Source of the DNA: Thiorhodovibrio winogradskyi
GTDB taxonomy: Bacteria; Pseudomonadota; Gammaproteobacteria; Chromatiales; Chromatiaceae
DNA length: 64,000 nucleotides
Assembly (NCBI RefSeq): GCF_036208045.1
Contig: NZ_CP121472.1
Coordinates: forward strand, 2,987,531-3,051,530
Direction of reading: 5' to 3'
Shown here: in pieces, positions 32,126 through 42,332 of the stretch
How positions within the stretch are numbered: position 1 is the stretch's first letter
Layout of the letters: each line of letters starts with the position of its first letter
The notes under the pieces: generated by a model
What the model was told of the DNA's origin: nothing
What the model saw: the letters and a program-made list of their open reading frames with translations, nothing else
Databases searched by the model: none
Translations under genes and position numbers: made by a program

Positions 32126-32588
32126 GGTTTCTCACCACTCCTGAGGTTGTTGGTTTAAGGTCGTTGGCTTTTAAGGATGCTGGCACCCAATCATGGGCAC
32201 CAAAAAAATTGCGCGAAAGAAAAAATTACATCATCCCGACTGCCCAAGTCGGATCGAGCCATGTGTTTCGAGATCGAATCTTAGATCCCAGGCTGTTAAT
32301 CTAAGCCCGGATCAGTCGAACATCAACGCCTTCCGACCCGTCCAGGGCATCTCAAGTTCCAACAGGATAACGAAAGCAGCCGCGAGATCAAGCACCCGGC
32401 CTACCCGCGCGCGGCGTCGCACGCAGTATCGCTCCCACCGGTGGCAAGGTCTGAGGAATGTCTTGATCTCGCAAATAACAAACCTTAGCTAGTACGTTTT
32501 ACACCAAAGGGCAAAGCATTTGATTTGCATTGGCTCAGGCTGCTCCCAGCAGCACGCAAAGACTTGGTTAGAAAGCCGGCTGACGCCG
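32126..32588. other. Intergenic region left of the RT cassette
   Basis: About 460 bp with no supportable gene. An open frame on the + strand (32193-32492) is rich in Arg, Ser and Thr without domain signatures or a good ribosome-binding site. The promoter of the BI-1 gene should be at its left end. No metallophosphoesterase 5' fragment, transposase or direct repeat matching the right edge of the island is visible. Confidence 0.55.
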
Positions 32589-32693
32589 GGTGAAGGGGGG
32601 CGGGGACCAAAAAAAACGCCCTCCGAAAGCCACGGCCTCTGTGGAGGGTTCTAGTTAGGATCCGGTCAAGAGCGGGAACCGCCCCCCTTCGCC
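32589..32693. repeat. Nested inverted-repeat element directly downstream of the reverse transcriptase
   Basis: The outer arms GAAGGGGGGCGG (32592-32603) and CCGCCCCCCTTC (32679-32690) are perfectly complementary over 12 bp and extend to 15 bp with one G-T wobble. Inside lie GACC (32605-32608)/GGTC (32664-32667) and the stem CCCTCC (32619-32624)/GGAGGG (32643-32648). The whole is about 105 bp and starts 20 bp after the RT stop. It is either an elaborate terminator or a structured RNA belonging to the cassette. Confidence 0.75.
32609..32648 (-). terminator. Rho-independent terminator for the RT operon (inner hairpin)
   Basis: Read on the minus strand, the CCCTCC/GGAGGG stem (32643-32648 and 32619-32624) is followed two bases later by eight T residues (A on the + strand, 32609-32616). 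This is a standard terminator layout for the minus-strand RT operon, nested within the larger inverted repeat. Confidence 0.65.
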
Positions 32694-32712
32694 GCTTATC
32701 TTAGCACCGGTT

Positions 32713-34056
32713 TCACCCTGACCGAGGGATGGCGGCATTACGGATCTGCACGAGCGACATTAATCCGTGCCTTTCGCGCAACTCCCGCATCGACAATCGT
32801 CGAAATCCGCGAACGCCTGGCTGCTCGGTCGCACACTGCACGATCTTCCGGGCGATTCGGTAGTCGATGTCCCGAAGCAGACTTCGGTCATTGGTGTCTC
32901 GCAACATTGACGCCATACCCGGAACCGTGAAGGCATGCCCCGGTGTCAGCATACGATTCGTCACCCGGCTAAGGCACGCAGCTCTGGCATCGATGTGATA
33001 GTCGCGAATGGCATGCGCGGTTCGATCCAGTCGCCGACAAACCTCGGTCATGACGCGCGCGATACGTTTTGGCCCTGCCGCGACAGTGCCAGCAAAGGTC
33101 ACCGAAAGGCCAAGGAAATCAATATGGCTTGAGCCTTGAAATCGCGAATCCATCTCGCAGCGCCGTCCGGCGCCGTTGAAGTAGGTGAGTATGTCCTTTT
33201 TTTTATTACGCTGTACACCAAGCGGTTTGAGTAGTTCGTTGATCTTGGCATCCGCGTTTATAACAACATCCCGATCCGGGTGCGCAATTAGGAAGTCGTC
33301 ATTGAACCGAGCGTAAAAAGCTCCTTCCGTATCCGCCAGCATCTCGTCGAGCGGCGCCGCGGCGAGAACATTCACCATGGGTACAATGGGCGTCCCCATC
33401 GGAATCCCGCGGAGTCGCGAAAACTCCAGGCCGCCTGGATCGCGAACCACCGGGCGGACCAGAGACTGAATCAATTGCCACGCATTGTCCGAAATCGCCC
33501 GATCCGTACCAACCTCTATCACCTCTCTTAGCTTGGTCCAAATGAAAGCATCCTGGTGAACCGGAAGATTGTCGCCGTACTTCTCGAAATCTGACTGGAG
33601 CACGAACAATCCGCGTTTCCTGGGATCAGGGACTCGGCGCCGGTAGTCGCGGACATAAGCCGCGAAGTCTTGCATCGCCTGATAGTTGCTCTTGCCCGGT
33701 AGATAGGAATAGAGCCCCGGCAATCCCAACACCCGCGCATTCTCGGAAACGACTTGGTAGACCACCGCGCCGATAATCTGATCGATAAATGTTGCCCTAT
33801 GCACTGCCCGCGTTTTCGAGCGCAGCTTGAGGAACCACAGGTCGACCGGCGCGAAGACGTAGTCGCCGCTCGCCACTGTTTTAGCGAGCACCTTGCCGAG
33901 GCTGCGATTGCGCAGATAGGCGGCGTAGTAACTCACTCCGCCATAGGCCTGCATGAACCCTTTGTTCAGCCGATTCCTCTTGCCAAAGACCTTGCGAATC
34001 GCAGCTGCGTAGGCATGAGGATCGGCCAGGATGTCGTCGATGTGAAGCCGACTCAT
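32713..34056 (-). CDS. Reverse transcriptase of unknown group (defence candidate)
   Basis: 447 residues from an ATG with GAGGAG eight bases upstream. RT motifs are in order: Asp156 in LQSDFEKYGDNLP (motif A), GIPMGTPIVP (217-226), the catalytic FNDD box (251-254, in place of YADD), NKKKDILTYF and HIDFLGLSV (311-319). There is no X/maturase or HNH domain as in group II introns, and neither the NAxxH nor VTG motif of retron RTs is present. No template/variable repeat pair suggests a DGR. It overlaps the membrane-protein gene by ATGA and must be co-translated with it. The combination looks like the unknown-group RTs that serve phage defence; the function is inferred, not shown. Confidence 0.88.
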   Translation of the reverse strand: MSRLHIDDILADPHAYAAAIRKVFGKRNRLNKGFMQAYGGVSYYAAYLRNRSLGKVLAKTVASGDYVFAPVDLWFLKLRSKTRAVHRATFIDQIIGAVVYQVVSENARVLGLPGLYSYLPGKSNYQAMQDFAAYVRDYRRRVPDPRKRGLFVLQSDFEKYGDNLPVHQDAFIWTKLREVIEVGTDRAISDNAWQLIQSLVRPVVRDPGGLEFSRLRGIPMGTPIVPMVNVLAAAPLDEMLADTEGAFYARFNDDFLIAHPDRDVVINADAKINELLKPLGVQRNKKKDILTYFNGAGRRCEMDSRFQGSSHIDFLGLSVTFAGTVAAGPKRIARVMTEVCRRLDRTAHAIRDYHIDARAACLSRVTNRMLTPGHAFTVPGMASMLRDTNDRSLLRDIDYRIARKIVQCATEQPGVRGFRRLSMRELRERHGLMSLVQIRNAAIPRSG

Positions 34057-36146
34057 GTGTGCGACTCCTCGCTTGAGCCCGACGGCTTTAACCAGGTGAA
34101 TTGCCATTCGGCAAAAGCATCATCCCAACGCTTAAGCGATCTCGCATCAACATCACTAGGCACAAAAAATAGCGCGCGGAGATTGTCATCAAGAAACGCG
34201 GCATAGAGACGATAGTGACCGCACCAGGCGTACGGCGAACCAGAGCGCAAGGCGCGCATGGCAAAAGGAATCGCCGAAGCCACAGTCTCCTTATCCAGCT
34301 TGGCGGCTTCACGCGATCGGCCGGCCGCTTGTAGATCGAGCACGATACCGTCGCGAATTTCGCAACGAAAGCTGTCGATCAGAGCGAAGATGTCAAGCCG
34401 AGGCGACGGCCGTCGCAGATCATCACGATCACGCAGCATCGCGATGGCAGCCCCACCCCCCTGCCGTGGTCCTGGCAATGGACGCACCAATGCGATCAAA
34501 CCGCCCGCGGCTTCCACAAAGAGATAAGGGTCGAAAGCCTCCCGGTCGCTCTCGCGCACTCGCTCATAATAAATGAGACGCCGATCATCCAACCAGGCCA
34601 AGCGCCCTTTGCCCTCTAGGGCTTCCTCCAGCATCTCGCGGAGAGCGGATTTTTCGCCTTCGGCAACCTTTCTAGCGACCGTGATCACACCCAGATCGAG
34701 CTTCCCAGCTTCCGCCGCCAAGCGTCGTCCCCAGTCATTCAACGCAAGGAACGGCGCGACCCTGACCGTCCGATGATCGTGCAAGATTTGCGCTGCAATC
34801 AAGAAGATCAGACCAGCGAGCAAACAAAGATCAATTTGCGCGAGACCGCCAATATCGGCAAAACCACGGACTTCAACAAAAACAAGACCAGCAATGATGA
34901 TGCCTACGCTGACACAGACCTCGACGAATCGTGCATCCGCAAAGGCTCTGATTTGATACACGGCAAGCCAAGCCCTAAGCAGGAACAAGGGAATCATGGC
35001 AACCAGGAGTTGAAAAGGGATATCGGCGAATCCGAACAAGAAGACGGTCGTCGCCAGCGCCCAGAAAAACAGCCCGATGCCGACGGCGGCGAAAACAAGT
35101 TTCGCCATGAACCCCCGCGCAAGATCCCGCAGCATGCGCGAGCGTCGAAGTCGAACGAAATCGAAGTAAAACAGCGCCGACCATTCATAGGCGCCGCGAA
35201 TGGCCGGCAGAACAAGATAGAGAAAGAGCCAGAAGTCCGGCGTCTTCCATGTGGGATGTCCAGCGGTGAGATCGATCGCCTCGCCGCCGATCGATTCGAG
35301 CCCGAGGAGAACGGGCACCAGCAAACCATCGATCCGAATCAGGAGCCCGGCCAACGTTGACCACATTAAGTTTATTAACGGCAGACGGCGCAGGAACGGG
35401 AAAAACCCCGTCAACCCCTGGCGAAATGTCGGACTGATCCCGACGACCCGATACATACGCTTGATGTAAACCAAGCCAATGGTCATGCTAAAGGCGCCGC
35501 TAAGGATAATCGAGACAATCAGCGATCCCTCATGTAAAACACCAAATAGACTTGCCATTGCCGCGGCTTGAAGCAAGATGGGCGCCAGAACGGTCAGGAA
35601 CGGGCGGTAGATGCGCCTATTTGAATAGATACCTGAATGAAGGGTGAGAATCGGAATACGTAGTGCGAGTTCAACCGTGATCAGCAAGATATAAATGTCG
35701 ACAAAGATCGTCTCGGCTGCATTCGCTGACGACAAGGAGACGAACAGCCAGGAAAGGCCGCATAGGAAGACAACCAACGCAAGGATGACTGAAAGCACCA
35801 ACCAGTGCGAGATCTCCCGCTCATACTCCGGCTTGTCAGTCGGACCAGAGAGCGCGCGCAGTCGTTCGCGCAGGACTTCCATCGCGCCCCACCAAGCGCC
35901 CCTGACGAGTGGGGCGCCCGCACGCAAAAGCACGACGAGGATAACGCCGGGTTTGGTCGCGTGAGCAAGAAGAATGAAAAACTCCGCCACATGGACGGAA
36001 AAGGAGATAATCTCGAACGAAAATAGATAGCGCAACCGATAGGCGAAATAAGACGCGATCTTGTTGCGAAGTAGGCTCGGAAAAAGCGTAACGACACGAT
36101 TCTGGCTTTTCGCGGCTTTCTCAAACCACTGATCGATCTTTCGCAT
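34053..36146 (-). CDS. Large multi-pass membrane protein coupled to the reverse transcriptase
   Basis: 697 residues; the second ATG was chosen because GGAG lies nine bases before it and directly abuts the first (36155). About residues 40-455 contain some ten to twelve hydrophobic segments (for example WLVLSVILALVVFLCGLSWL and LCLLAGLIFLIAAQIL), in a layout reminiscent of flippase-like exporters. Residues about 456-697 are soluble, and the stretch EEALEGKGRLAWLDDRRLIY is faintly like a degenerate GGDEF-type fold, which is only an impression. I do not recognise the family. Coupling to the RT implies a joint function, perhaps as the membrane effector of an RT-based defence system. Confidence 0.8.
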   Translation of the reverse strand: MRKIDQWFEKAAKSQNRVVTLFPSLLRNKIASYFAYRLRYLFSFEIISFSVHVAEFFILLAHATKPGVILVVLLRAGAPLVRGAWWGAMEVLRERLRALSGPTDKPEYEREISHWLVLSVILALVVFLCGLSWLFVSLSSANAAETIFVDIYILLITVELALRIPILTLHSGIYSNRRIYRPFLTVLAPILLQAAAMASLFGVLHEGSLIVSIILSGAFSMTIGLVYIKRMYRVVGISPTFRQGLTGFFPFLRRLPLINLMWSTLAGLLIRIDGLLVPVLLGLESIGGEAIDLTAGHPTWKTPDFWLFLYLVLPAIRGAYEWSALFYFDFVRLRRSRMLRDLARGFMAKLVFAAVGIGLFFWALATTVFLFGFADIPFQLLVAMIPLFLLRAWLAVYQIRAFADARFVEVCVSVGIIIAGLVFVEVRGFADIGGLAQIDLCLLAGLIFLIAAQILHDHRTVRVAPFLALNDWGRRLAAEAGKLDLGVITVARKVAEGEKSALREMLEEALEGKGRLAWLDDRRLIYYERVRESDREAFDPYLFVEAAGGLIALVRPLPGPRQGGGAAIAMLRDRDDLRRPSPRLDIFALIDSFRCEIRDGIVLDLQAAGRSREAAKLDKETVASAIPFAMRALRSGSPYAWCGHYRLYAAFLDDNLRALFFVPSDVDARSLKRWDDAFAEWQFTWLKPSGSSEESHT

Positions 36147-36187
36147 GTCGCACATCTCCAGCCATCAGGGGGCGCCTTGGTGCGTCG

Positions 36188-36233
36188 CTCAGCGGGCGAT
36201 TTCATCAAGCGGCGGTGATCGGTTGATGCTGAG
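36188..36233 (-). promoter_or_regulatory. Hairpin in the leader of the RT operon
   Basis: CATCAA (36203-36208)/TTGATG (36223-36228) flanked by CTCAGC (36188-36193)/GCTGAG (36228-36233) gives a nested stem between the operator-like palindrome and the first gene of the RT operon. It could be a leader structure or part of a small RNA supplied to the RT. Confidence 0.35.
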
Positions 36234-36305
36234 TGCAGCGGCACGGGCGGTCAAGAGGTCGTTACAACGCTCACCTAAAGCCATGTCATGAAATCGCATA
36301 ATACT

Positions 36306-36328
36306 TGCGATATCATGCTGATAGCGCA
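36306..36328. promoter_or_regulatory. 23-bp palindrome between divergent island genes (operator candidate)
   Basis: TGCG-a-TATCA-tgc-TGATA-g-CGCA is symmetric apart from one mismatched pair. It lies in the roughly 290-bp region shared by the minus-strand RT operon and the plus-strand RNase T2 gene, where a dimeric regulator could control both. No regulator gene is visible in the island. Confidence 0.5.
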
Positions 36329-36433
36329 GGAATTATTCAGTGTACCGCACGCAATTGGTGCAAGCACACGCTTCTTGTAACCATGCAAAGTACAACAAAG
36401 ATGGCGGGCTCGAAAGGGGAGTTAAGCAAGGCG

Positions 36434-37279
36434 ATGAGCATCAGGTCGATGGATATCAGGACGAAAGTCAACACTAGACCACTTCATCCCAATTTACTTG
36501 CTCGCAATATCCACTTGCGTGTGTTACTCACTATATTCTTGTGCTTCGTCGGGTTTCCTGTAACCGCAGCGGACCAGGAGCAGGCTTGCGAGCGATTCGC
36601 ACACTATATTTTCATGCGCGATTGGTCGCCAAGTGTCTGCATCAAGTACGCAAAAGAAGGCGCCATGTGCATCATTCCCAATGCTTCGCGGAACTGGATC
36701 GTACACGGATTATGGCCTTCAGCTCCTGCCGGAGAGCGACTATTCATCTCTTGCGATGGTCCTGAGTTTTCCCGCGACGCGGTCAGCGGCCTAGAGCCCG
36801 CACTCGATACCATCTGGCCCAATCCGGAGTTCGAACAGGCCGACACCACGGCGCGGGGCCGCACTTGGGCATGGCGTCACGAATGGGAAAAACACGGAAC
36901 CTGTGCCGCACTCTGCGATCCCCAAGTGGACGGGCAATCTGCTTACTTTCAGCTGGCAATGGATCTGAACAAAAGATACGACATTGCATCGGTTTTGGAT
37001 CATGCTGGAATCATGCCCAACGCCATGACACCAATCGCATCGGTTACCCTTGTCAACGTGCTCAAGAAGGCCTTTGGCGTCAATCCGATCATCGAATGCG
37101 TCACCCCCAACCGTGGCGATACCGCTTACCTTTACGCGATCGGACTCTGCTTCTCGAAATCTCACGATCCGCTGGACTGTCATCAGGAGTCTGACACTAG
37201 CGACGCTAGTTGCCCGGCGACTGTCATCTATCCGACACAGAATATTCCAGCAAGGCCACGGCAATCTAGGAACCACTGA
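36434..37279 (+). CDS. Secreted ribonuclease T2
   Basis: 281 residues from the preferred ATG; several in-frame starts exist between 36305 and 36434 and the true one is uncertain. A signal peptide is evident (LRVLLTIFLCFVGFPVTAA). Both active-site segments of the T2 family are intact: CAS I WIVHGLWPS and CAS II WRHEWEKHGTC, giving the catalytic histidines and glutamate. Cysteines are numerous, as expected for a disulfide-stabilised periplasmic or secreted enzyme. T2 enzymes cut RNA non-specifically, leaving 2',3'-cyclic phosphates. The 2H phosphoesterase gene starts 2 bp after the stop. The region is visibly richer in A/T than the surroundings. Confidence 0.92.
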   Translation: MSIRSMDIRTKVNTRPLHPNLLARNIHLRVLLTIFLCFVGFPVTAADQEQACERFAHYIFMRDWSPSVCIKYAKEGAMCIIPNASRNWIVHGLWPSAPAGERLFISCDGPEFSRDAVSGLEPALDTIWPNPEFEQADTTARGRTWAWRHEWEKHGTCAALCDPQVDGQSAYFQLAMDLNKRYDIASVLDHAGIMPNAMTPIASVTLVNVLKKAFGVNPIIECVTPNRGDTAYLYAIGLCFSKSHDPLDCHQESDTSDASCPATVIYPTQNIPARPRQSRNH

Positions 37280-37281
37280 TC

Positions 37282-37986
37282 ATGATGACAACAATGCTAA
37301 GAATTCCAATGATCCTTTTAGCGGTATTCTTACTATCCACGTCTATCGCCTTTGGCCAAAGTAATCTGATCGCCATTGATGTCTTGATTCAGCCAGGCCC
37401 GAAGATGGTGGCTGAAGCAAAAAAATGGAATACGGCGCTGCGTGAGCAATACCCCAATGGATTCAAGCTAGACGAAGGACATCTTCCTCACATCACGCTG
37501 ATACAGATGTTCATTGCCGAATCCGATCTACCTAGGATGTTGGCGGCTGTGGCTCAGGTTAAGTCGGAGTTTGACTGGCGCACTCTCGAACTAACGGCGA
37601 CAGGTCTTTATCACTTTCCAACCGGCCAGAATGGGCTGGCCGGTTTCTTGATCGAACCCATTGACCAGTTGCATGCGTTGCAGCAAGATGTCATTGAGGC
37701 TGGGAGAGACTATGCGCGAAAAGGGGGAGATGAATCCGCATTCGTTCCTGATCAGTCAGGTTCTCCGTTTGATCCGAGCCTGTTCCATTATGTTGAGACA
37801 TTCGTGCTGAACCAGACTGGAGATAGGTTCAATCCGCATGTCACGATCGGTGTGGCGCCACTCAATTTGTTACAGGAATTAGAGCAGAAACCATTCGACA
37901 AGTTTACCTTCGGTGCCAATGACATAGCGATCTATCAACTCGGCAATTTTGCAACAGCGTCCAAGCGCCTAGACCGCGACCGCTAA
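37282..37986 (+). CDS. Secreted 2H phosphoesterase (2'-5' RNA ligase/cyclic phosphodiesterase family)
   Basis: 234 residues with AGGAA upstream of the ATG and a signal peptide (MILLAVFLLSTSIAFGQ). The two HxT motifs of the 2H superfamily are present, HITLIQ (about residue 71) and HVTIGV (about 193), placing the active site between two lobes. Members hydrolyse 2',3'-cyclic phosphates or 2'-5' bonds. Because it follows the RNase T2 gene by only 2 bp and is also exported, it most likely acts on the cyclic phosphates that RNase T2 generates; this is inference from context. Confidence 0.85.
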   Translation: MMTTMLRIPMILLAVFLLSTSIAFGQSNLIAIDVLIQPGPKMVAEAKKWNTALREQYPNGFKLDEGHLPHITLIQMFIAESDLPRMLAAVAQVKSEFDWRTLELTATGLYHFPTGQNGLAGFLIEPIDQLHALQQDVIEAGRDYARKGGDESAFVPDQSGSPFDPSLFHYVETFVLNQTGDRFNPHVTIGVAPLNLLQELEQKPFDKFTFGANDIAIYQLGNFATASKRLDRDR

Positions 37987-38164
37987 TCCATTTTCACCTG
38001 AGACCCCCTAACTCATCATCTTAGCTGGCGGCGCACCGGCACGTCACTTCAACATTATGACCGAGCAGAATTCAGTGGGAATCATGCCCAATGCCCCCGG
38101 CATGACCCTGGCTCCAAGTCAGGTGACCGTCTTAACCCTCGAATAATCCAGAAGATGGTGTCTC

Positions 38165-38380
38165 ATGATTGATTACACTCAGTTTGATTACTCAATACTT
38201 TTCATAGCGGTACTAGTGATAGGCTATGGTATCTATGCGCTCATACGTGGCGAATTTCAATGGAATTTCACAACGGCGAAGCGAATAGAACGCCCAGTGT
38301 CGTTTTGGCTGTCGATCGCTTTTTCTTTTATCGGCGGAGGACTCATGCTCATGCTGGGAATGAATATCTGCCCATGCTAG
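38165..38380 (+). CDS. Small two-helix membrane protein
   Basis: 71 residues. Two hydrophobic stretches (SILFIAVLVIGYGIYALIRG and FWLSIAFSFIGGGLMLMLGM) are separated by a polar loop with KRIERP. I do not recognise a family with confidence; small proteins of this layout include immunity proteins and orphan membrane peptides. It lies 178 bp after the 2H phosphoesterase gene on the same strand. Its stop overlaps the point where the truncated metallophosphoesterase frame begins, so it may have been joined there by recombination. Confidence 0.6.
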   Translation: MIDYTQFDYSILFIAVLVIGYGIYALIRGEFQWNFTTAKRIERPVSFWLSIAFSFIGGGLMLMLGMNICPC

Positions 38381-38840
38381 AACTGGCCTCGCTCGCGCGC
38401 TTTCTGAACACACTCGATGCGCTGCCGGAGGGCGCACGCGATCTGGTCACCGCGCATCACCCGCTGCGCGAGGTGGGCACCAAGGGAACCGCGCTGACCC
38501 GGCATGGCCAGAAGGCGCTCTTAAGGAACTCGCCAAACGCCCGCTGCTCGCGGGTCATGTCCATGATGCCTTTGACCTCACCGAGCAGAGCGTGGCGGGG
38601 CCGGTGCGCATGATTAGCGCCGGCACCCTGTCGCGGCGTCTGCGCTCCCCCTCGGCGATTTTCAACGAGCTGCGCTGGGATAGCGAGCATTTGCGCGTGA
38701 GTCTGCGCGATCTCGACGTTTACCCCACGACTGTCATGATGATCGGCGACCTGCCCGAAGACGCAACCCCTCAGCGCCGTCCGGACAAGCAAGTCGCGCC
38801 GGTCGAGAAGGTTCCGGCTGTGGATCCACCGTTGCATTGA
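38374..38840 (+). pseudogene. Metallophosphoesterase remnant, 5'-truncated and frameshifted
   Basis: The first frame gives LVTAHHPLREVGTKGTALTR and continues, after a shift at about 38518-38520, as ELAKRPLLAGHVHDAFDLTE and VRMISAGTLSRRLRS. Together these are the C-terminal metal-binding motifs (THHPL and GHxH) and tail of a calcineurin-like phosphoesterase. The N-terminal metal-binding half is missing; upstream in this frame lies only the overlapping small membrane-protein gene. It therefore looks like a decayed host gene at the right edge of the accessory island. Confidence 0.75.
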
Positions 38841-39293
38841 TTGCGCTTGGCGCCGCGGGGCTGCGACAGTTAGGATTCTGGCATGCGCTTGAGTCACTTA
38901 ACTTCTTGTGCATTGCTCAAGAATCAATGTCTCTTGCAGCACCCTGTAGTGGCGGCGATGATGGTGGAAATGACAATTCCCCTTGTCAAATCGCGTCAAA
39001 TGCGGTGCGTCAGCACTTCACAAGCGCGGAAGCTGCACGTATACTCTTGAGTTATTCGCTTCGGCGAATGCGCGAGTCGGGGCCGCGGGAGCGGTCAAGA
39101 AAGTCTGGTGACCCGACAGTCGGCAGGAATCGGCCTAAGCTGTCACCTGGGCCAACTGAGCCAGACAAGCTGGACCGACTCACGCGGGTCCGACCCACTC
39201 GGCCCCGACCCTTTCAGATGGCCGGGCAGTCCTGGTTTCCTGTTCTGACATCAACTGCTTACCCGAAAGACGTTACCATTTAGGAGAGAGACA
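38841..39293. other. Leader/intergenic region upstream of the sulfur globule protein gene
   Basis: About 450 bp. It contains a near-consensus promoter at 39017-39045 and, downstream of it, a long potential leader with a 10-bp inverted repeat GTCGGGGCCG (39076-39085)/CGGCCCCGAC (39200-39209). An open frame on the + strand (38837-39283) has no recognisable protein features and is not called. Confidence 0.6.
39017..39045 (+). promoter_or_regulatory. Sigma-70-type promoter for the sulfur globule protein gene
   Basis: TTCACA (39017-39022), a 17-base spacer and TATACT (39040-39045), that is 5/6 matches at each hexamer. Transcription would begin about 240 bases before the ATG at 39294, implying a long 5' leader. 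Confidence 0.6.
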
Positions 39294-39671
39294 ATGACGA
39301 AGTTTTCTAAGATGATTGGCGTTGCCGCCATTGCTGGCGCTGCCGCCTTCTCTATGGGTACCGCACAGGCTTGGTGGGGTCCTGGTTGGGGCGGCCCCGG
39401 TGGTTACAATGATGGCTGGGGTGATGGCTTGGGTGACATGTTGGGCGACGGCTATGGCGACTTCAACATGAGCATGTCGGGTGGTGGTCGCGGTCTAGGA
39501 CGTGGCCGCGGTTATGGCTATAACCGTGACTATTATGGCTATGGCCCTTATGGCCACGGCTACCCCTATGGCGGCTACGGCCATCCGGGTTATGGCTACG
39601 CGCCCCCGGCTCCCTATGGTGCTCCCTATGGCGCGCCTCCGGCTCCGGCCAACAGCGGCGAATCCAAGTAA
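39294..39671 (+). CDS. Sulfur globule protein (Gly/Tyr-rich, secreted)
   Basis: 125 residues with AGGAGAG before the ATG and a Sec signal peptide ([19 protein letters not shown], cleavage before WWGPGW). The mature protein is dominated by Gly, Tyr, Asp and Pro with short repeats ([19 protein letters not shown], then GYG/YGY units), closely resembling SgpA/SgpB of purple sulfur bacteria. These form the protein envelope of intracellular sulfur globules in the periplasmic compartment and link the organism to oxidation of reduced sulfur. A strong terminator follows. The gene stands alone between a degraded locus and fnr. Confidence 0.88.
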
Positions 39672-39739
39672 GACTGACTCTAGCAGTCTGTTACACAGCG
39701 CAGACAGCCCAGGCACCGAGTGCCTGAGCTGGGCTCCGA

Positions 39740-39767
39740 GCCGCGCCGACCCAGGCGCGGCTTTTTT
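39740..39767 (+). terminator. Rho-independent terminator after the sulfur globule protein gene
   Basis: A perfect 8-bp stem GCCGCGCC (39740-39747)/GGCGCGGC (39754-39761) with a 6-base loop followed by six T (39762-39767), about 70 bp after the stop. It is suited to a highly expressed monocistronic gene. Confidence 0.92.
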
Positions 39768-39821
39768 GTGCCTGCTCGATTCCCTGTTTGCATCTAGGGT
39801 TGGCCTGATGGGAGGCTCCAC

Positions 39822-39835
39822 TTGATCTCCGTCAA
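39822..39835. promoter_or_regulatory. FNR-box-like site upstream of fnr
   Basis: TTGAT-CTCC-GTCAA differs by one base from the FNR consensus TTGAT-N4-ATCAA. It lies 43 bp before the fnr start codon, in a position suited to autoregulation by oxygen-sensing FNR. Confidence 0.6.
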
Positions 39836-39878
39836 TGACGGCTGCAAAATGGCAAAAAACTGATCGGAGTGGAGCGCC

Positions 39879-40637
39879 TTGAGTCAGGATAAAATTATTT
39901 CTTTCGAAAATATCCGGGTTGCTTGCCGCAACTGCTCGCTTAACGCCCTTTGCCTGCCAATGGGCTTGTCAGGCGAGGATGTCGAGAAGCTGGAGAGCGT
40001 GATCAAGCGCTCGCGGCCGCTGCATCGCGGCGAGCATCTGTTTTACGGCGGTGAGCGTTTTCAATCTCTCTTTGTCGTCAAGACCGGGTCGGTCAAGACC
40101 TACACCCCGAGCTCAGAGGGCGGCGAGCAGGTGCTTGGCTTTCACTTGCCCGGTGAGTTGATCGGCCTGGACGCCATCGATCAGGATTTTCACGCCTGTT
40201 CGGCGCGGGTGCTTGAGACTTCGGCGATCTGCGAGGTTCCCTTCCGCAGGCTCGAGGAGTTGGCGGCCACCCTGCCCTCGCTACAGCATCAACTCTACCG
40301 CCTGCTGAGCAAGGAGATTGTCGAGGAATCCGAACTCCTGATGCTGCTGGGCAAACGCAATGCCGAGGAGCGCCTGGCGGCTTTTCTGGTCAGTTTGTCC
40401 CAACGTCTGGGCAAGCGCGGTCTGTCGACTACGGATTTTCACCTCAGCATGTCCCGGCATGAGATTGGCAATTATCTAGGCCTGGCGGTTGAGACCGTGA
40501 GCCGGCTGTTTACCCGCTTTCAAGACGAGCGAATGCTGGATGTTGACAGAAAACATGTTCAGGTACTTAACATGCCGCGTATTGAAGCCCTGGCGGGCAT
40601 CGCACAAAACCGCACGGGCAAGCGCGAAACCAGCTGA
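39879..40637 (+). CDS. fnr: FNR-type oxygen-sensing transcriptional regulator
   Basis: 252 residues from a TTG start. Four cysteines at 16, 19, 25 and 107 reproduce the [4Fe-4S] ligand pattern of E. coli FNR (N-terminal three plus one central). A cNMP-binding-like fold (about 30-150), dimerisation helix (KEIVEESELLMLLGKRNAEE) and Crp-type helix-turn-helix (MSRHEIGNYLGLAVETVSRL, with the E--SR recognition residues) follow. It should activate or repress genes on loss of oxygen; in phototrophs this includes bacteriochlorophyll and respiratory genes. An FNR-like box in its own upstream region suggests autoregulation. Confidence 0.92.
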   Translation: MSQDKIISFENIRVACRNCSLNALCLPMGLSGEDVEKLESVIKRSRPLHRGEHLFYGGERFQSLFVVKTGSVKTYTPSSEGGEQVLGFHLPGELIGLDAIDQDFHACSARVLETSAICEVPFRRLEELAATLPSLQHQLYRLLSKEIVEESELLMLLGKRNAEERLAAFLVSLSQRLGKRGLSTTDFHLSMSRHEIGNYLGLAVETVSRLFTRFQDERMLDVDRKHVQVLNMPRIEALAGIAQNRTGKRETS

Positions 40638-40850
40638 TTTTCTTGCGGGCTGGCGCCCTTGCCGGAGCCGCCGAGCCCGCCACCATCGCGCAAAAAAACA
40701 CATCTACCTCCATACCGTCGCTTGCGCGCAAGGCGAGGGACAGTCAACCCGCCTTGCATCGGCGGCGCAATCACGACATCCTTAGTGCCCTTTTCCGCCC
40801 GGCTGGTTGCAGGCAACCGGCATTTGCAGTCTCTTTCAGGATTTCCTGTC

Positions 40851-42332
40851 ATGCATGACCTTCGCGATCAACCTGCGCGTCATCTCCCGGCCTTGGCTGG
40901 TCTTGGCCGCGCCTCCATCGGCATCAGCAGCGCGCTGCTGGGAACACTTTTGCTGTTCTTCTCTGGCGGCCTGCTGGCATCCGAGGGCGGCACCGCACAT
41001 CTGAATCTGACCACCACCTGGGTGGGACTGACCTCGCTGCTGATCTTTGTCGTCGCCTATGGCCTGGTGATGACGGAGGAATTTACCCATCTGCGCAAGT
41101 CCAAGCCGGTGATGCTGGCGGCTGGCGCGATCTGGCTGCTCATTGCCTACTACTACGAAACCCATCACGGCAGCCCCCATGCGGCGGCCGAAGCGGTGCG
41201 ACACAACATCATGGAGTTCGGCGAGCTGTTTTTGTTCCTGCTCGCGGCCATGACCTACATCAACACCATGGAGGAGCGCCTGGTTTTCGATGCCCTACGC
41301 TCCTGGCTGCTGCGCATGGGGTTTGGCTACCGCACGCTGTTCTGGATGACGGGTTTTCTGGCCTTTTTTATCTCGCCGGTGGCCGACAACCTGACCACCG
41401 CGCTGTTGATGTGCGCAGTGGTGATGGCGGTGGGCGCCGACAGTCCCAAGTTTGTTGGCCTGGCCTGTATCAACATCGTGATCGCGGCCAACTCAGGCGG
41501 CGCCTTCAGCCCCTTTGGCGACATCACCACCCTGATGGTCTGGCAGAAGGGCATTATTGATTTCGAGTCCTTCTTCCGGTTGTTCATCCCCGCGCTGGTT
41601 AGCTTCGCGGTGCCAGCCTGGTTCATGCACAAGGAAATTCCCAACGTCAAGCCGCCGCCGAGCCAGGAGCGCGTACGCATGAAGCGCGGCGCCATTCGGG
41701 TGGTGCTCTTGTTCCTCGCGACCATTGCCACGGCGGTGAGCTTTCACAATTACTACCACCTGCCGCCGGTCCTGGGCATGATGACGGGTCTGGCGTACCT
41801 GAGCTTCTTTAGTTATTACCTGAACATGACCGGTGAGATGTCGACGGTACGCGCTGGCAACATCGAAGACAGCATGCCTTTTAATATCTTCAACAAGGTG
41901 GCACGCGCGGAGTGGGACACCCTGATGTTCTTCTACGGTGTCATTTTGTGCGTCGGCGCCTTGGGTTTCATCGGCTATCTGGAACTGGTCTCCCATGTCG
42001 CCTACGACGGCATGGGCCCAACCATCGCCAACACGCTAATCGGCATTCTGTCTGCTGTTGTGGATAATATCCCGGTGATGTTCGCGGTACTGACCATGAG
42101 CCCGGAGATGAGCCAGGGCCAGTGGCTGCTGGTGACACTCACCGCTGGCGTGGGCGGCAGCCTGCTATCCATTGGCTCCGCCGCCGGCGTGGCGCTGATG
42201 GGCCAGTCCAAGGGCATGTATACCTTCTTCGGGCATCTTAAATGGACGCCCTATATCGCGGCGGGTTACTTCGCGTCCATCCTCAGCCACTTCATCATCA
42301 ACTTCGGAACCTTCAAGCTGCCAGCTAATTGA
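40851..42332 (+). CDS. nhaD: NhaD-type sodium/proton antiporter
   Basis: 493 residues. The ATG was chosen because CAGGA lies nine bases upstream and the preceding in-frame sequence is basic and non-conserved. About a dozen membrane helices; typical stretches are FLAFFISPVADNLTTALLMC, IVIAANSGGAFSPFGDITTL and VVDNIPVMFAVLTMSPEMS, the conserved Asp-Asn motifs of the NhaD/IT superfamily. It exchanges Na+ or Li+ for protons at the inner membrane, as expected in marine or brackish bacteria. Downstream it converges with dnaQ; an 11-bp inverted repeat (42357-42367/42393-42403) lies between the ends. Confidence 0.92.
   Translation: MHDLRDQPARHLPALAGLGRASIGISSALLGTLLLFFSGGLLASEGGTAHLNLTTTWVGLTSLLIFVVAYGLVMTEEFTHLRKSKPVMLAAGAIWLLIAYYYETHHGSPHAAAEAVRHNIMEFGELFLFLLAAMTYINTMEERLVFDALRSWLLRMGFGYRTLFWMTGFLAFFISPVADNLTTALLMCAVVMAVGADSPKFVGLACINIVIAANSGGAFSPFGDITTLMVWQKGIIDFESFFRLFIPALVSFAVPAWFMHKEIPNVKPPPSQERVRMKRGAIRVVLLFLATIATAVSFHNYYHLPPVLGMMTGLAYLSFFSYYLNMTGEMSTVRAGNIEDSMPFNIFNKVARAEWDTLMFFYGVILCVGALGFIGYLELVSHVAYDGMGPTIANTLIGILSAVVDNIPVMFAVLTMSPEMSQGQWLLVTLTAGVGGSLLSIGSAAGVALMGQSKGMYTFFGHLKWTPYIAAGYFASILSHFIINFGTFKLPAN

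Follow-up and report, generated by a model that had tools for sequence, protein, structure and literature searches.

Ribonucleases of the T2 family make 2',3'-cyclic phosphates. In Escherichia coli, the genes of the T2 enzyme RNase I and of CpdB are not known to form an operon, and CpdB, whose fold is unrelated to that of the 2H phosphoesterases, also removes phosphate. The classification of the 2H enzymes is reportedly due to Mazumder and colleagues (2002). In the available portion of a study of E. coli, RNase I makes all of the detectable 2',3'-cyclic mononucleotides (2',3'-cNMPs) of that bacterium (PMC8765455). CpdB is described, in the accessible text of two papers, as a periplasmic 2',3'-cyclic nucleotide phosphodiesterase that is also a 3'-nucleotidase (PMC7922932, PMC10454023). 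LigT, according to an excerpt of another report, converts 2',3'-cAMP into 2'-AMP (PMC5283653), and a rice paper, in its available part, ties S-like T2 RNases to phosphate recycling (PMC7793952). No description of an exported 2H-phosphatase fusion or of a T2-2H gene pair was found in the literature searched, in which subscription journals are thinly covered.

In the current work, a stretch of 64,000 nucleotides from Thiorhodovibrio winogradskyi (the window) was found to carry an RNase T2 gene and a 2H phosphoesterase gene side by side. The putatively exported RNase T2 (36434..37279, + strand) has 281 residues when read from ATG 36434, which appears a reasonable start codon; the longest version of the frame opens at TTG 36305. 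Its membership of the RNase T2 family is indicated by PF00445 (137.7 bits, cut-off 26, residues 56-249) and by WIVHGLWP and WRHEWEKHGTC, which contain HGLWP and HEWEKHGTC, taken here as the T2 catalytic motifs; both are intact in the translation, histidines included. The N-terminus contains a hydrophobic stretch, LRVLLTIFLCFVGFPVTA, followed by AD, and resembles a signal peptide when judged by eye. The 5.48 Mb genome has no other PF00445 match. Among PDB chains, the top relative by sequence is the plant RNase MC1 at 92.9 bits, against a best score of 49.5 bits with 65 bacterial T2 loci, a comparison of bit scores alone with limited bacterial sampling. The T2 gene may possibly have been transferred from a eukaryote or from an unsampled bacterial clade. 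A single-sequence search of IMG/VR with the T2 protein found no relative.

The second gene (37282..37986, +) encodes a putatively exported 2H phosphoesterase of 234 residues, from ATG 37282 to a stop codon ending at 37986. The protein matches PF13563 (41.6 bits, cut-off 27) and PF02834 (28.3 bits, cut-off 23.3), and both H-x-T/S motifs are present as HIT in LPHITL and HVT in NPHVTI. Its N-terminus, MLRIPMILLAVFLLSTSIAFG/QS, also resembles a signal peptide by eye. The T2 stop codon occupies 37277-37279, which leaves a gap of exactly 2 bp before the 2H start, and an AGGA lies a few bases 5' of that ATG. Both gene calls are well beyond chance. The original prediction had described two proteins with intact active sites and signal peptides, encoded 2 bp apart; the catalytic motifs, Pfam scores and coordinates agree with it, and the signal-peptide-like N-termini make export of both products a likely prediction.

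Modelled by AlphaFold with 63 aligned sequences, the mature 2H protein has a mean pLDDT of 92.4, and on this model it is predicted to have the 2H cyclic-phosphodiesterase fold. In VIA-align it matches YjcG (2d4g, Z 15.1), Arabidopsis CPDase (1jh6, Z 14.8, rmsd 2.6, 161 residues), drCPDase (5h7e, Z 14.6) and E. coli LigT (5ldi, Z 13.9), and other 2H enzymes give Z values of 13-15. The protein is thus placed in the 2H superfamily by its motifs and by its fold. Since many of the structural scores are nearly tied, the model gives the 2H fold and not the nearest subfamily or substrate. The top match in Foldseek is a cGAMP phosphodiesterase from a poxvirus (E 6.7e-6, TM 0.46), which makes cyclic dinucleotides a possible substrate. 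From its Pfam matches, motifs and fold, the protein is probably a 2',3'-cyclic phosphodiesterase. It does not appear to be LigT or ThpR proper, since no PDB chain, LigT included, was related in sequence at E up to 1, and NCBIfam, which presumably includes a ThpR model, gave no match at E up to 0.01.

The adjacency of the two genes is a single case, as far as was searched. A T2 profile found no T2 gene beside any of 85 related 2H loci, some of them shortened by contig ends. In the opposite direction, none of 65 other T2 loci, each at most 3.6 kb long, had a neighboring 2H gene by a generic 2H profile built from 23 frames, of unchecked sensitivity; this survey omits three T2 matches of the class sample and one from the 2H-bearing genomes. 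In the class sample of 369 genomes, T2 occurs in 32 and PF13563 in 205, and among the matches listed the genes of the window are the only T2/2H neighbors. T2 was found somewhere in 28 of 80 genomes that bear a relative of the 2H gene and was not found in the other 52, some of which are incomplete; the 2H enzyme thus does not depend on T2. The proportions 28/80 and 32/369 are no evidence of linkage, because the two groups differ in taxonomy. Two other genomes of the genus lack both T2 and the 2H family. A conserved, recurrent T2-2H system, the possibility that a survey of adjacency had been proposed to examine, is therefore rejected as far as the searches reach (0/85, 0/65, both genus-mates without either gene). 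Within that scope the adjacency is confined to this strain, which the original prediction had itself named as grounds for refutation.

The two genes lie at a point of rearrangement, within DNA that varies across the genus. Window DNA from about 38969 rightward is kept in both genus-mates, and the part from 20000 to about 32141 is also kept there, located elsewhere. Between these two parts, with 40 candidate places scored per genome, the only genus-mate matches were a short piece near 32.3 kb and a repeated element at 38390-38850. The synteny break, together with the absence of genus-mate matches for the DNA between, defines an approximate variable segment of about 6 kb at 32400..38390 that holds the T2-2H pair and a pair of genes for a reverse transcriptase and a membrane protein. 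The G+C content falls to 50-53% over the T2-2H pair from about 55-65% in the DNA around it. Acquisition or assembly of the pair is probably recent.

Several other elements of this region can be described. The repeat at 38390-38850, of about 430 bp, adjoins the synteny break. Among the candidate places scored, a second copy was found in the T. winogradskyi genome, and one genus-mate has two copies and the other has one, at 73-77% identity. On the minus strand at 32713-36155, divergent from T2, a 464-residue reverse transcriptase frame overlaps a frame for a 700-residue protein that appears by eye to be a membrane protein and has no Pfam match at E up to 0.01. The reverse transcriptase is weakly similar to Drt9 (61.4 bits, PADLOC models) and scores 47.7 bits against group II intron reverse transcriptases, for which the NCBIfam cut-off is 300; the two frames may possibly be an unlisted defence pair. 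To the right, at 39294-42332, a sulphur globule protein, an Fnr-type regulator and an NhaD antiporter follow in a row (Pfam/NCBIfam), which suits a sulphur-oxidising purple bacterium.

In single-sequence searches with the 2H protein, neither the 368 remaining genomes of the class sample nor assembled genome contigs gave a relative, and plasmid records gave seven, of 34-40% identity. When named genomes were searched with a profile of five sequences, 171 related stretches appeared; the top 80 of them, four of the plasmid loci and one further locus (L147) make up the 85 study loci. L147 was the only other relative that the profile detected in a phylum sample of 398 genomes. It is a distant relative (1546-2109 of its locus) inside an open frame of 1072 residues, in which the second catalytic histidine is replaced by proline. 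Of the 86 aligned 2H sequences, 85 retain both HxT/S motifs. A crude signal-peptide rule, a rough screen given the uncertain start codons, is satisfied at 56 of the 85 loci. The tree groups the window protein with its eight closest relatives (53-70% identity) in a clade of nine sequences, with support of 100/100. Two of these eight have a PafA-like gene 17-42 bp upstream, in two frames at one locus (L072), and the other six have no recognised partner adjoining. An origin of the 2H gene in phages or viruses was rejected: no phage record encodes a relative, and IMG/VR gave no match in a single-sequence search and one locus (L199) in a profile search, with neither T2 nor any of the three phosphatases described below.

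The more interesting result of this analysis is that the 2H family, putatively exported for the most part, is repeatedly joined to phosphatases. A phosphatase of the HAD (37), PhoC-type/PAP2 (9) or PafA (3) type is fused to the 2H domain or adjoins it at 49 of the 85 loci; these types were chosen from four of the family's own loci (L062, L063, L064 and L066) before being counted across the same 85. The HAD cases comprise 23 fusions, with HAD first in 18 and 2H first in five, and 14 separate HAD genes on the same strand within 400 bp. All nine PAP2 cases are 2H-PAP2 fusions, and the three PafA-like genes precede the 2H gene. None of these partners was found at the remaining 36 loci. Partner-bearing loci come from about ten phyla, according to the origins of the records. 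Thirty control loci with generic PF13563 proteins had no HAD, PAP2 or PafA partner; the controls came from one class, with flanks of about 1.5 kb, shorter than the family loci.

The naming of the partners rests on examples. PF12710 exceeded its cut-off in all six HAD proteins scanned, and Pfam found PF01569 at L062 and PF01663 at L066. The top NCBIfam scores fall below the curated cut-offs: PhoC 158.8 bits against 430 (L062), PafA 461.8 against 650 (L066) and HAD-IB 22.1 against 45. The catalytic motifs are nearly always kept, with D.DGT in 38 of 39 HAD frames and SGH plus the His/Asp motif in all nine PAP2 frames. On a tree of 86 sequences, some of them long-branched, the three partner types change at least seven times, and partner presence or absence at least 19 times. 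The recruitment of partners from three unrelated phosphatase families points to a shared chemistry, in which a cyclic phosphodiester is opened and the phosphate is then removed. As the commonest recognised partner is a phosphomonoesterase, the 2H enzyme seems to act in many hosts as the first step.

Another recurrent partner for the 36 solo loci was sought and rejected: in 74 of the 137 listed neighboring frames, which are crude calls, no Pfam family occurred in more than two. Sulfatase-like frames, recognised by eye, lie near the rhizobial 2H genes (L062 341-1969 and 6355-8019; L063 16-651; L069 8587-10254), suggesting a shared island.

The original prediction placed both enzymes on a two-step route from RNA to mononucleotides. 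The logic of substrate and product in that proposal agrees with the predicted fold and with the phosphatase partners of the family, and the notion of the pair as a system is not supported, with an adjacency seen once as far as was searched. In the reading that we favour, T2 and 2H would form a co-transcribed unit of two genes that degrades RNA outside the cytoplasm. Cleavage of RNA by RNase T2 would leave 2',3'-cyclic nucleotides or ends, whose cyclic phosphate ring would then be opened by the 2H enzyme. The product is probably a 2'-mononucleotide (2'-NMP), a narrower outcome than the mononucleotides first named, because LigT turns 2',3'-cAMP into 2'-AMP in the available part of that report (PMC5283653). 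By this analogy, 2'-NMPs would be the extracytoplasmic end product of the pair, and the final release of phosphate needs another enzyme. In many hosts the 2H protein would thus begin a path from cyclic phosphate through monoester to inorganic phosphate; in T. winogradskyi the partner slot would be held by the RNase that makes the 2H substrate, and the phosphatase would come from elsewhere. The genome has one PF02872 match, a long UshA/CpdB-like protein (L148, 130-3120). It is a putatively secreted nucleotidase of the UshA/CpdB superfamily with a C-terminus that appears repeat-rich by eye, and its specificity is not readable from sequence.

Phosphate starvation had also been suggested as the trigger, and no sequence support for this was found. 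In a scan with a single consensus, the approximately 400 bp that precede T2 contained no Pho-box match with fewer than seven mismatches. The sole match of the window, a Pho-box-like sequence with three mismatches at 37221..37238 (+), lies within the 3' end of T2 and is not significant, as at least one such site appeared in 10 of 100 shuffles. Across the 2H family, upstream Pho boxes with up to four mismatches occur at 4 of 83 loci, where plain shuffles predict 0.7; this weak and scattered enrichment was set aside.

We consider it somewhat more probable than not that T2 and 2H are a co-transcribed unit degrading RNA extracytoplasmically, with a 2H family that elsewhere often seems to feed phosphatases. 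Weighed against this are the single T2-2H case, the six partnerless relatives among the closest eight, the 36 of 85 loci without a phosphatase, the signal-peptide rule satisfied at only 56 of 85, the first place of the cGAMP phosphodiesterase in Foldseek, the lack of a Pho box upstream and the NCBIfam scores of the partners. A rival reading is an exported 2H phosphodiesterase that feeds phosphatases from other substrates, such as phospholipid or sugar cyclic phosphates, ADP-ribose derivatives, cyclic dinucleotides or 2'-5' linkages, with its place beside T2 an accident of gene transfer. An adjacency seen once, the 52 of 80 2H hosts (some with incomplete genomes) in which T2 was not found, the Foldseek ranking and the Ensifer and Rhizobium copies, flanked by sulfatase-like genes (by eye) and not by nucleases, speak for such an enzyme; however, the 2 bp gap on one strand and the fit of substrate to product do not, nor do plant CPDase and LigT among the top VIA-align results, although these are tied with less characterised 2H proteins. 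We regard this explanation as unlikely, and as the most serious of the alternatives.

A function in defence or signalling, in which foreign RNA is destroyed or the 2',3'-cNMP signals made by T2 are cleared, appears quite improbable. The genus-variable segment, and in it the adjoining divergent reverse transcriptase with its weak similarity to defence enzymes such as Drt9, would be in keeping with defence, and 2',3'-cNMPs influence E. coli physiology according to the available portion of one study (PMC8765455). However, neither T2 nor 2H has a PADLOC match at E up to 0.01, the 2H relatives are missing from phage records, and their recognised partners are phosphatases. Least probable of all, and by our estimate very improbable, is that two intact genes without a joint role are kept as inert cargo of a recent insertion. 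Their absence from both genus-mates examined, the synteny break and the lowered G+C content (about 50-53% against about 55-65% around) are what such cargo would show, but the reading frames and active sites are intact and the spacing is operon-like.

The preferred reading, a co-transcribed RNA-degrading unit, can be extended to the family, although more tentatively and with somewhat less than even confidence. The 2H family, largely exported by prediction and spread over some ten bacterial phyla, may be a general opener of cyclic phosphates that evolution has coupled to three or more unrelated phosphatases and, here, to an RNase. Such combinations would constitute a modular pathway, outside the cell, that leads from RNA to phosphate and is an alternative to CpdB. 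The repeated fusion to unrelated phosphatases and the one pairing with an RNase suggest a concrete and cheaply testable function for this family. If true, it would add an extracytoplasmic route for recycling phosphorus from RNA in which CpdB is not needed.

Among known systems, RNase I and CpdB resemble the pair of the window in that 2',3'-cNMPs made by a T2 enzyme are opened, putatively so in the window, by another exported enzyme. Unlike CpdB, the second step of the window is a 2H enzyme and would need a separate phosphatase. The fold and the two HxT/S motifs are common to the window protein, LigT/ThpR and plant CPDase; the window protein differs from these in its signal-peptide-like N-terminus, in relatives that are often linked to phosphatases and in the absence of a sequence match. 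The 2H family has relatives of the PafA, PhoC and HAD phosphatases as its fusion partners or neighbors, whereas none of them adjoins the 2H gene of the window, where an RNase T2 is found instead. The T2 protein of the window resembles the plant S-like T2 RNases, which are induced by phosphate starvation, in that its best match among PDB chains is RNase MC1 at 92.9 bits; unlike them, the T2 of the window is bacterial, shows no detected phosphate-response signal and stands in an operon-like arrangement with a 2H gene.
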